This document shows positions 44,749 to 48,676 of a stretch of 58,346 nt of DNA, one piece after another. The position numbers were made by a program, and so were the translations under genes. The notes under the pieces were generated by a model. It made no database searches, was not told the DNA's origin, and saw nothing but the letters and a program-made list of their open reading frames with translations. Positions within the stretch are counted from its first letter, which is position 1, and each line of letters opens with the position of its first letter. This stretch comes from a virus: IMG/VR virus record IMGVR_UViG_3300044655_000081, positions 1 to 58,346 of that record; one strand, written 5' to 3'.

Positions 44749-45408
44749 ATGGCATCTTTTACCATAGAAAATCCACCTACAAATACTACAATGCTGGACT
44801 TCAATGCAGCAATTAATGATCTAGGTGCACCTGCTAAGAACTGTCGATTTGCTATTCAGATATTACCTTCGGGTTTAGGTCCGAATGGTCACTTCTTATA
44901 TAAACTTGGCTATACAAGTATGCTCAAGGACCTCACCTATCTATGTGAAGCGGTAGAGTTTCCTGGTCGTGGCTTCGAGTTCATCGAATCAAGATATTAT
45001 GGTCCTTCACAGTTTCTACCATACAACTCAAAGTATAACAACGAGTTTTCTGTTTCAATCCTAACTAGACAAAAAGCATATGAAAGACAAATGTTTGATG
45101 ACTGGTTGGAAGTTATTAACCCAACAAACACATTCGACTTTAACTACACAGATGTTTATTATGCCACGATTAGAGTATTTCAATTAGCAGAAATATCAAA
45201 TGGTGAAAAGTCACCAACAAGAGGTAAGGCATCATATCTCTGGGAACTTAAACAAGCATGGCCATTTCAGGTTAATCCACAGCAGGTTACCTGGGCTGAT
45301 AATGACGTTCTAAGATTGAATATCACATTCACATATAGATACTGGAGTAGACCAGGAAGAGATGCTATACCTGGAGGTTCACCAATACCTTTGAGTCCAG
45401 CAACATAA
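44749..45408 (+). CDS. 54: Tail tube initiator, gp54-like (tube-protein fold)
   Basis: The 219-residue protein has NCRFAIQILPSGLGPNGHFL, YLCEAVEFPGRGFEFIESRY, YGPSQFLPYNSKYNNEFSVS, RQMFDDWLEVINPTNTFDFN and a C-terminal RLNITFTYRYWSRPGRD. The layout echoes gp19 at 299-901 (an e.PGr.... segment, fdrW...I, then f.Y.Yw), as expected for a tube-fold initiator. In T4, gp54 begins tube polymerisation on gp48. Two nt separate it from the gp48-like gene. T4 gp54 is longer (320), so the assignment rests on fold pattern and position. Confidence 0.78.
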   Translation: MASFTIENPPTNTTMLDFNAAINDLGAPAKNCRFAIQILPSGLGPNGHFLYKLGYTSMLKDLTYLCEAVEFPGRGFEFIESRYYGPSQFLPYNSKYNNEFSVSILTRQKAYERQMFDDWLEVINPTNTFDFNYTDVYYATIRVFQLAEISNGEKSPTRGKASYLWELKQAWPFQVNPQQVTWADNDVLRLNITFTYRYWSRPGRDAIPGGSPIPLSPAT

Positions 45409-45419
45409 TGGAGTAAATA

Positions 45420-46178
45420 ATGTCTTTGCCTATTGAAACGAGCAACAAACCGTTGCCCAAAATTGATGTGCCAGTTTATACAGTAAAGATACCATCGAGT
45501 CAGAAAACTATTAAGGTCAGACCATTCAACGTTAAAGAAGAAAAACTTCTACTAATGGCAGCAGAGTCTAATAGTGGTGAGGAGATTGTTAGCACGGTTA
45601 AGCAAGTGATCAATAACTGTATCGTGAGTGGAACTTTTGATGTAGATAAAGCACCATTCTTTGATATCGATTTTTTGTTTATCTTTCTACGTGCTAAGTC
45701 TATCGGTGAGTCAGTTGAGATTAATCTTACCTGCCACAATATATTGAATGATGAAGAAGGAAGAGTTTGTGGTCATACATTCAAGACCAATATGGACATT
45801 TCTAATAACGAGATTATCTATAATGATGAAGTAAAAGATGATGTCAAACTAGATAAGACCAGTGGTGTCATGATGAAATATCCAAACTATGCACTGATTA
45901 AGCAGTTGGATGACACTCCGGACAATGAGAAGAAAACCAAAATTATCATGAACTCTATTGAACACATATATGATAAAAAGGGTGTGTATTCTGCTAAAGA
46001 CTATTCATCTAAGGAACTTAAAGATTTCATTGAGGGGCTAACAGAAGAAAACTATAAGAAACTGGAATACTATATCGACAACTTCCCTTCTTTCTTAGTT
46101 AAGATCGAAGCAGACTGCCCTAAATGTGGCTTTCATCATGTTGTGAGGTATGCAGATTTCCTAGATTTTTTTCAGTAA
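45420..46178 (+). CDS. 26: Baseplate hub assembly protein gp26
   Basis: The 252-residue protein reads LPKIDVPVYTVKIPSSQKTI, KVRPFNVKEEKLLLMAAESN, VKQVINNCIVSGTFDVDKAP and FFDIDFLFIFLRAKSIGESV. These are the core of the T4 gp26-type baseplate family. A C-rich C-terminal part follows (CHNILNDEEGRVCGHTF, EADCPKCGFHHVVRYADFLD), probably zinc-binding through CxxC and further Cys/His. TGGAG lies six nt upstream of the ATG. The gene ends in a 7-T slippery run one codon before its TAA, placed so that -1 slippage would continue into gp51. Confidence 0.9.
   Translation: MSLPIETSNKPLPKIDVPVYTVKIPSSQKTIKVRPFNVKEEKLLLMAAESNSGEEIVSTVKQVINNCIVSGTFDVDKAPFFDIDFLFIFLRAKSIGESVEINLTCHNILNDEEGRVCGHTFKTNMDISNNEIIYNDEVKDDVKLDKTSGVMMKYPNYALIKQLDDTPDNEKKTKIIMNSIEHIYDKKGVYSAKDYSSKELKDFIEGLTEENYKKLEYYIDNFPSFLVKIEADCPKCGFHHVVRYADFLDFFQ
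46166..46172 (+). promoter_or_regulatory. Slippery heptamer T_TTT_TTT for -1 frameshifting at the end of gp26
   Basis: Seven T residues are in the correct phase: gp26 codons read GAT TTT TTT CAG TAA. A -1 slip gives TTT TTT TCA GTA ATA ATG and continues in the gp51 frame. The predicted fusion is about 329 residues. gp51 has no purine-rich site before its own ATG. Confidence 0.65.
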
Positions 46179-46180
46179 TA

Positions 46181-46408
46181 ATGGGTCATGACAGACTCGG
46201 GAATGTATTTAAAACGAACTTTGCATTGATGCAGCATCATCACTGGAGTTTAACAGAACTAGAACAGTTGATGCCGTGGGAAAGATATATCTACCTTGAC
46301 ATGCTAAAACAATTCTTAGATGAACAAGAGAAACTAAGAAAGCAACATGAGCAAGAACAAAAAGCAAAACTATCGCAACTAGAGCGTCAAGCAAAAATGA
46401 GAAGGTAA
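46181..46408 (+). CDS. 51: Small hub assembly protein, gp51-like
   Basis: The 75-residue protein reads MGHDRLGNVFKTNFALMQHH HWSLTELEQL, then PWERYIYLDMLKQFLDEQEK and a Lys/Gln/Glu-rich helical tail. The W...Ele.m.pWEr.iYi.lL...l motif is typical of the short gp51-like proteins beside gp26 in marine T4-like phages, and is like the second part of tail-assembly chaperones (the T of lambda gpGT). T4 gp51 is longer (249). The region before the ATG is T-rich and lacks a ribosome-binding site, so expression by reinitiation at TAATAATG or by -1 frameshift from gp26 is likely. Confidence 0.75.
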   Translation: MGHDRLGNVFKTNFALMQHHHWSLTELEQLMPWERYIYLDMLKQFLDEQEKLRKQHEQEQKAKLSQLERQAKMRR

Positions 46409-48676
46409 ATGGCATTATCCTTTAAACTAACAAAAGCAAACTACGATGCTCTAAGAAGCATGAGCATGTCACAGAGAATACAAGTAGCCAAGAACGATGA
46501 AGTCGGTCAATGGCTCTTGTCTCTAATGTCACCTACTCAATTAGCAGAACTCTTCCCACTATACTATCAGAGAATGTTACCTGTAGATATATCAGGTTTC
46601 GCTAAAGCAATGCCAACGTCAATGACAATGGCCAAGCAAAGAGCAATCGAAGAACAGTTACAGAATACGGCTTCTGGAGCATCTGCCGGTGCCAATATGC
46701 AAGCAGGTGGATGGAGAAAGAAGTGGCAAGAGAGTATGACTGCTAAGGTTGGTAAGACACCACCTCCACAATTATCAGAAGAACAGAAAAAGACATATGA
46801 TGCATTGAAGTCTACACCAATGGCTGTCGATGATCCTCGTGCTAAGATGTTTGCAGGACTAGATGAAAGTCAATTATCATCTGTTGGTGTTAAAAAGATT
46901 ACACAAGATGGTAAAGACTTCTTCAAATATACTGCACCAACTGTAAGTGACGAAGAAGTAAAACGAGCAATCGCAAGTCAAGGCAATTTTGAGCAAAGAG
47001 CATCAGCCTTTATGCCAAGATTACAAAAAGATTTGAATATTACAAAAGAACAGGCAGCGGGTATTATAGGCAGTCTAGGAGGTGAAACTGGTGGGCTAAA
47101 AGCAGTTCAAGAATTACATCCAGTAATTCCAGGCAGTAGGGGTGGTTTTGGTTGGGCTCAATGGACAGGACCAAGACGAGTTGAGTTCGAACAGTTTTCT
47201 GCTGCTAGAGGATTAAGTATTACCTCTGATGAAGCAAACTATCAATTTTTGGTGCATGAACTCAAAGGTAGTGAATCAAAAGCACTTAATCAATTGAAGC
47301 AAACTGGCAGCGTCGATGAAGCAGCAAGAGTATTTACTGGTTCAGCAGCCACAGGCATTGGCTATCTGAGACCTGGAATTGAACACTACGGCTCAAGTAT
47401 TTCAAAAGCAAGACAGGCATATGGTGCAATAGGTATTACTAATGACTATTCGGATAAGTCAATGGAACTTGCTAGAGAAAAACTTATTCGCAATATGGAA
47501 GCCAATAGAATTGGTACACTAGCAGAATATACTAATGCAGGACTACCAGCACCAGGCTCACCAGAAGCCTCAGCAATCGTTGGTGATACTAAAGGTGCTA
47601 ATGCAGTTGCATCAAAGATTAAAGATCAGTTTGGTAATCTAAGCAACCCACAGTGCGTTGCTCTAGCAAAAGCGTATGTTGGTTCTAATAGTTCTGTCAC
47701 AGAATGGCGCCGTGGTTCTAATGTTATGGACGGTACACTAAAGCCAGGAACACCTATTGCTACATTCATGGATAGAAAAGGCAACCCATCTTCAATGTAT
47801 GACGGTGGACAAGGTGTCGGTGCACCAGGTAATCACACAACCCACGCTGCTGTCTTCCTAGACTATCAGAGAGATGGTGCAGGTAAGATTACAGGCATTC
47901 GTGTCATGGAGCAATACAAAGGCTCTGGAGGTGCTCATGAACGCACATATCCTGTCGGTGGCTTCGGTACTAACAATGCTGCTAACTATCACTCTATTAA
48001 TGATAAGAGTGGTGCACCATTAGGGTCTACTAATCCTATGGTACAAAACGCAGCAGTTGATCCACCTAAGACACCACTTGCCGATTATACTTCTAAAGTT
48101 CCTATGCAGGCTAACCCACCACCTAAACCAGTAGAAGCAAAGCCTGCAAACAAAGACAATGCACAACCACCTAAACAAGTAAAAGCAAATGCTAAAGGTG
48201 GTATTAACAAGATTAACACAGAACAAATCTCAGCATATCCAATCGGTGGTGCTCAAGGTGATAATGCAGTTGTTGTCAATGCACAGCAGCAACCACTCTT
48301 TACAATGAATACTAATGAGAAGATGCTTATTGATCCTAAGAAGGATACGGCACAGGTTATCCCTGATCAAAAGCCAGATGTGAGCCAGAAGCCAACACAA
48401 GATACAGGTGTTATGGATGAATTTAAAGCAGCCATTCAGGAACTTAAAAACGAGTTCTCACAGAATGATCCTGGCAAGTTTAAGCAACCTGATATGCCTA
48501 ATAGAGAGACATTCGATAAAGATACACAACAGGGTCATATATTAGATGGTATGAATGATTTGTCTAAAGAATGGTATTCAACACCTTCAATGAAACGTGC
48601 TGCATTTAGAACAGGTGGTGTTGAGACCGGTGAACCAGTAAGTAACTTCCATTATAGTCACGGTAACAGATCATAA
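46409..48676 (+). CDS. Tail/hub peptidoglycan hydrolase with lysozyme and amidase-like domains
   Basis: This 755-residue protein has a helical N-terminus (about 1-110). A phage tail lysozyme domain follows at about 205-340: EQAAGIIGSLGGETGGL (Glu about 226) and GFGWAQWTGPRRVEFEQF. Residues about 395-530 form a BPSL0067/NlpC-like domain: SNPQCVALAKAYVGSNSSVT (Cys about 416), GTPIATFMDRKGNPSSMYDG, GNHTTHAAVFLDYQRDG (His about 479) and GIRVMEQYKG. Two peptidoglycan-cutting activities are therefore likely. The gene follows gp51, where T4 has gp27-gp29, so it may be the tape-measure/hub protein. It could supply the cell-wall lysis that T4 keeps in gp5. AAGG precedes the ATG. Confidence 0.82.
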   Translation: MALSFKLTKANYDALRSMSMSQRIQVAKNDEVGQWLLSLMSPTQLAELFPLYYQRMLPVDISGFAKAMPTSMTMAKQRAIEEQLQNTASGASAGANMQAGGWRKKWQESMTAKVGKTPPPQLSEEQKKTYDALKSTPMAVDDPRAKMFAGLDESQLSSVGVKKITQDGKDFFKYTAPTVSDEEVKRAIASQGNFEQRASAFMPRLQKDLNITKEQAAGIIGSLGGETGGLKAVQELHPVIPGSRGGFGWAQWTGPRRVEFEQFSAARGLSITSDEANYQFLVHELKGSESKALNQLKQTGSVDEAARVFTGSAATGIGYLRPGIEHYGSSISKARQAYGAIGITNDYSDKSMELAREKLIRNMEANRIGTLAEYTNAGLPAPGSPEASAIVGDTKGANAVASKIKDQFGNLSNPQCVALAKAYVGSNSSVTEWRRGSNVMDGTLKPGTPIATFMDRKGNPSSMYDGGQGVGAPGNHTTHAAVFLDYQRDGAGKITGIRVMEQYKGSGGAHERTYPVGGFGTNNAANYHSINDKSGAPLGSTNPMVQNAAVDPPKTPLADYTSKVPMQANPPPKPVEAKPANKDNAQPPKQVKANAKGGINKINTEQISAYPIGGAQGDNAVVVNAQQQPLFTMNTNEKMLIDPKKDTAQVIPDQKPDVSQKPTQDTGVMDEFKAAIQELKNEFSQNDPGKFKQPDMPNRETFDKDTQQGHILDGMNDLSKEWYSTPSMKRAAFRTGGVETGEPVSNFHYSHGNRS

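Follow-up and report, generated by a model that had tools for sequence, protein, structure and literature searches.

Organization of the gp26-gp51 locus

We analyzed a window of 58,346 nucleotides (the whole of IMG/VR virus record IMGVR_UViG_3300044655_000081, from an uncultivated T4-like virus), in which a gp26-like gene is followed after two bases by a small gp51 reading frame. The features of the locus are as follows, in coordinates of the window:

44749 to 45408, + strand: tail tube-like gene, directly 5' of gp26 (phrog_45 tail tube, E=1.7e-22)
45420 to 46178, + strand: gp26-like gene of 252 aa, putative short tail assembly chaperone (TAC-N), from PF12322, phrog_150 and an AlphaFold2 model
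46166 to 46172, + strand: slippery heptamer T_TTT_TTT, candidate -1 slip site, in phase and conserved in relatives
46172 to 46408, + strand: -1 frame extension with the gp51 domain (TAC-C; phrog_634), which together with gp26 up to the slip site would make a 329-aa long form
46176 to 46178, + strand: 0-frame TAA, end of the short form, from the sequence
46181 to 46408, + strand: stand-alone gp51 ORF, 75 aa if begun at the ATG two bases past the gp26 stop, without a Shine-Dalgarno sequence
46409 to 48676, + strand: 755-aa gene directly 3' of gp51, candidate tape-measure protein bearing two domains of cell-wall hydrolase type (PF18013, E=2.2e-18; NF033857 BPSL0067 family, above cut-off)

A tail tube gene is the usual neighbor of tail chaperone genes. 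Of the two domains in the product of the gene downstream of gp51, one is a tail lysozyme (PF18013) and the other is of the BPSL0067 family; the position of this gene suggests that it encodes the tape-measure protein. Of 14 genomes, only T4 itself had a match to the T4 tape-measure family PF25671, which did not reach the relatives. In S-CREM2, the cyanomyovirus with the longest reported tail (PMC10665884), the gene after gp51 (L099, 2739 onward) is very long at 1565 aa, as would suit a tape measure. Three further IMG/VR contigs with different sample numbers in their names (L002, L003 and L004) encode a gp26 identical to that of the window.

The junction of the two genes (46164-46183) reads GAT TTT TTT CAG TAA TAATG, with the T run at 46166-46172 in X_XXY_YYZ phase and 10 nt ahead of the gp26 stop. 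The first-pass annotation had proposed that an in-phase T_TTT_TTT at the end of gp26 allows a -1 frameshift, via Ser-Val-Ile-Met, into gp51, giving a fusion of about 329 residues. Its reading of the junction holds: the heptamer is exact to the base, the -1 frame stays open from 46124 until its stop at 46406-46408, with junction residues FF-S-V-I-M, and the predicted fusion is 329 aa in length. Equally borne out was the remark that gp51 has no ribosome-binding site, as Shine-Dalgarno-like sequences precede gp26 (GGAG) and the downstream gene (GAAGG), whereas none precedes the ATG at 46181. We screened the 51 window ORFs of 100 aa or longer for an in-phase slippery heptamer no more than 40 nt from the stop together with a -1 extension of more than 16 codons; gp26 was the only one to have both, which argues that the arrangement is beyond chance.

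The slip site is conserved among relatives

For comparison we assembled loci in which gp51 lies in the -1 frame and removed gp26 sequences that were at least 90% identical, which left 135 non-redundant loci. An in-phase T_TTT_TTN occurs inside the open -1 region near the gp26 end in 129 of them, at position -10 in 116 of these. The heptamer is TTTTTTC in 95 loci, TTTTTTT in 32 and TTTTTTG in 2; these counts vary slightly with the register chosen at eight-T runs, and 36 loci show seven T's when the first register is taken. The site is kept down to about 36% gp26 identity, and isolates that carry it include KVP40, S-ShM2, P-HM2, HTVC008M, Mosig and Melnitz-2, as well as phiAS5, CC2, Milchi, RHph_Y68 and vB_OspM_OC. 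Each of the six T positions holds 2.0 bits across the 129 sequences, with lower values at neighboring positions. The loci are related, so the counts are not independent trials; the contrast with internal Phe-Phe pairs is, however, made within the same genes, and there the arrangement T_TTT was found at 2 of 137 other pairs. From the codon usage of these genes, about 53 of 129 would be expected.

The position of the gp51 domain is equally regular: of 199 loci with an intact, single-copy gp26 ahead of it, 198 have it in the -1 frame. The exception is Synechococcus phage S-SCSM1 (L091, 2484-2671), in which T_TTT_TTC is present, the -1 frame closes at once and the gp51 domain lies in the +1 frame; it is the only relative with T_TTT_TTC in which this is so, and it may represent either a sequencing error or a real difference. 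In the large Aeromonas phages phiAS5 (L092) and CC2 (L093) the extension is in the -1 frame and is partly unannotated; gp51 has been described as missing from another Aeromonas phage, Aeh1 (PMC3037559).

The six non-redundant loci without a heptamer all belong to the Ackermannviridae. In this family (L094, L095, L097 and L183-L202) the gp51 extension is in the -1 frame with no canonical heptamer. Aglimvirinae and Bue1 have a near-invariant ATTTTCATYTAAT in the heptamer's place, Kuja has CCTTTTTC there, and many members have no ATG at the junction. One Ackermannviridae junction reads ATTTTCATTTAAT.

A comparison of this kind, across T4-like phages, had been suggested in the first-pass annotation, with a slippery run absent or out of phase, or a stop in the -1 frame, named as observations that would speak against frameshifting. 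Nearly all relatives display neither; S-SCSM1 and the Ackermannviridae are the exceptions.

The predicted fusion is colinear with T4 gp51

The window gp26 matches PF12322 (T4_baseplate, E=2.4e-52) and phrog_150 (baseplate hub, E=1.2e-57), and the extension matches phrog_634 (baseplate hub assembly catalyst, E=3e-25), the family matched by T4 gp51 itself (E=1.2e-23). By these profile matches, the extension and the C-terminal domain of T4 gp51 are homologues. It also matches the C-terminal part of phrog_150 (229-278), which indicates that phrog_150 includes proteins in which both parts are fused. T4 gp51 (249 aa) is such an arrangement in one reading frame: PF12322 covers residues 1-201, phrog_634 covers 147-246, and phrog_150 is matched over 13-280 of 282 positions. 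T4 gp51 thus consists of PF12322 followed by the extension and is colinear with the predicted fusion. In T4 gp26 (208 aa), by comparison, the short part only is covered.

T4 gp26 and gp51 are paralogues even by pairwise BLASTP (E=2e-06) and are encoded on opposite strands. PF12322 is present in two copies in T4 and in the RB43-like phage PF-CE2, and in one copy in 19 other phage records; in PF-CE2 the extension is in frame on one copy and absent from the other. Among the genomes checked, then, T4-type phages have two separate paralogous genes and single-copy phages have the frame junction. The T4 gp51 protein has been described as essential in hub assembly, of unknown function and missing from the particle (PMC3004832), a description that fits a chaperone.

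We also compared the proteins by predicted structure, modeling gp26 and a T4-type gp51 separately. The AlphaFold2 model of gp26 has a mean pLDDT of 91.7. In a fold search of 350,542 PDB chains, its first two matches were to the tail assembly chaperone of HK97 (2OB9), yet the scores were weak (E=0.6 and 1.5, probabilities 0.20 and 0.51) and the overlap partial (71-105 columns), so that the match is not significant by itself. A sequence search of solved structures returned nothing relevant. Against predicted viral structures, the gp26 model matches T4-type baseplate hub proteins, including one named 'hub assembly catalyst'. The T4-type gp51 model has a similar succession of elements and then three further helices, which correspond to the extension.

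Initiation signals and downstream RNA structure at the junction

A junction at which one gene stops two bases before the ATG of the next could also be served by translational coupling, with termination at the gp26 TAA, reinitiation at ATG 46181 and gp51 made as a separate small protein. The nearness of that ATG to the stop would allow termination-reinitiation in the window phage, an ATG is present in the -1 frame of 100 of the 129 heptamer-bearing relatives, and most depositors of these relatives annotate gp26 and gp51 as separate genes. In the other 29 of the 129, however, no ATG occurs in the -1 frame ahead of the conserved domain, and in some of these, such as ACG-2014d (L084), that stretch has none of ATG, GTG, TTG, ATT, ATA or ATC. 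Where a first ATG does exist, a Shine-Dalgarno-like motif precedes it in 1% of the 100 relatives, compared with 48% at gp26 starts. Coupling leaves unexplained both the retention of T_TTT_TTN in all 129 loci, unlike internal Phe-Phe pairs, and the existence of T4 gp51 as a full-length fusion. We therefore regard coupling in place of frameshifting as improbable, although the two could operate together.

The sequence downstream of the heptamer bears on a second alternative. Folding 55 nt from +12 nt after the heptamer start, we obtained structures of greater stability than those of dinucleotide shuffles for the relatives that do not belong to the window's group (mean z -1.72, n=97), and hairpins of several designs begin 5-6 nt past the heptamer in many marine/vibrio-type relatives. 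In the window's own group, folding against shuffles revealed no conserved downstream hairpin (mean z -0.08, n=32). Downstream structure is weaker where the run has seven T's than at T6N sites (mean -5.8 vs -9.9 kcal/mol, Mann-Whitney p about 1e-6), a difference that is confounded with clade. Upstream of the slip site, a Shine-Dalgarno-like GAGG at 14-15 nt is present in 70% of the other relatives; as synonymous shuffles already reach 50%, we set it aside as a candidate stimulator on weak evidence, and in the window's group no such stimulator is found at the 14-15 nt spacing.

With transcriptional slippage on the T run, the fusion would be translated from mRNAs with one U more or fewer, without ribosomal slipping. 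The run of seven T's in the window, and of eight in a few relatives (L029, L031, L096 and L098), could make RNA polymerase stutter. Most relatives, however, have only six T's followed by C, which is short for polymerase slippage; moreover, the run is conserved in codon phase, and hairpins 5-6 nt downstream fit ribosomal frameshifting. We consider transcriptional slippage very improbable. It is barely credible that the run is kept solely for a Phe-Phe pair needed at the gp26 C-terminus, with no slip, since the conserved FF could equally be encoded beginning with TTC, whatever the last base of the preceding codon, as the 2 in 137 T_TTT count at other FF pairs illustrates, and this need leaves the 2.0 bits at each of six T positions unaccounted for.

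Probable frameshifting as the source of a short and a long chaperone

Slip site, phase, open frame, conservation, domain colinearity and copy-number pattern are direct results from the sequences. On their strength we consider it highly likely that the locus is a programmed -1 frameshift that fuses gp26 and gp51 to provide the short and long tail-building chaperones of a T4-like myovirus; the arrangement is real, and ribosomes very probably use it, in this phage as in nearly all its relatives. Counting against this are the window's group, with neither a conserved hairpin nor a Shine-Dalgarno-like stimulator at the usual spacing, the +1 position of gp51 in S-SCSM1, and the Ackermannviridae without a heptamer.

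We infer the slipping itself, its efficiency, the binding partners and the chaperone role, and the mechanism would be as follows. Most ribosomes would halt at the TAA (46176-46178) and release the 252-aa gp26 as the major short form (TAC-N). A minority would slip one base back on T_TTT_TTT, with the tRNA-Phe in the P and A sites re-pairing to TTT TTT, and would proceed in the -1 frame to yield the 329-aa gp26-gp51 fusion as the minor long form (TAC-NC). On the lambda model, the gp26 domain would serve to coat the tape-measure protein and the gp51 domain to recruit subunits of the tail tube or hub; both forms would leave before the virion is complete. T4 would have adopted the alternative of two paralogous genes, in which gp26 serves as the short form and gp51 as the long form.

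The comparative evidence strongly supports such a frameshift, and with it the first-pass likening of the junction to lambda gpG/gpGT. Both systems have a short form, a long form extended in the -1 frame, a slip site shortly before the stop and a tail tube gene upstream. They differ in the slip site (G_GGA_AAG in lambda, which we checked, versus T_TTT_TTT), in that family searches detected no sequence similarity, and in that the next gene in the window encodes a lysozyme-domain protein as candidate tape measure. The TAC locus of Vandenendeviridae and Andersonviridae (PMC12846349) is likewise a myovirus TAC with a poly-T -1 slip site, but its motif is GTTTTT and the phage families are others.

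A 2016 review described G-T frameshifting as conserved in long-tailed phages 'except T4' (PMC5009743). Later, according to the PRFect paper (PMC10885494), Vladimirov, Gautam and Davidson (2022) described T4-like phages that have a short gene and, separately, a longer fused one, and according to the Adele paper (PMC12846349) the same work reported poly-T slippery sequences for the TAC-N genes in T4-like phages. Judging from domain architecture, the genes concerned would be gp26 (TAC-N) and gp51 (TAC-NC). The first-pass annotation knew of no reported frameshift between gp26 and gp51 in T4-like phages; as the two citing papers credit the poly-T sites and the two-gene solution to the 2022 work, that claim is outdated and falls. 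As those papers present them, the T4-like TACs likewise comprise a short and a longer fused form; the window differs in being from an uncultivated virus, with T_TTT_TTT as its slip site and without an evident hairpin after it. It is apparently a strong new example of an arrangement described in T4-like phages since 2022, and not a new phenomenon.

Frameshifting also accounts for an older observation. Sullivan et al. (2010) noted that gp51 of cyanophages and marine vibriophages misses the first ~200 residues (PMC3037559), in a text that does not contain the word frameshift; in a fusion these residues would come from gp26. The small stand-alone 'gp51' genes of many sea and freshwater T4-like phages thus probably encode the C-terminal portion of a longer protein, with gp26 supplying its first 200-odd residues, and a routine misannotation of gp51 would be corrected. 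Such misannotation recurs: in P-HM2 (L100, 2603-2695) gp51 is begun at an arbitrary internal codon and is very short, and in ACG-2014d it is omitted.

It is possible, though we hold this tentatively, that lineages tune the same chaperone ratio in different ways, with T_TTT_TTT and little structure in the window's group, T_TTT_TTC and a strong hairpin in many marine/vibrio-type phages, two genes in T4, and an extension without a canonical heptamer in the Ackermannviridae. If this is true, the near-invariant ATTTTCATYTAAT of the Ackermannviridae would be a non-canonical frameshift or initiation signal. The T4-like phages, once the listed exception, would follow the same short-and-long pattern as tail chaperones in general, and their natural variety lends itself to testing the influence of slip sequence, RNA structure and gene duplication on the ratio.
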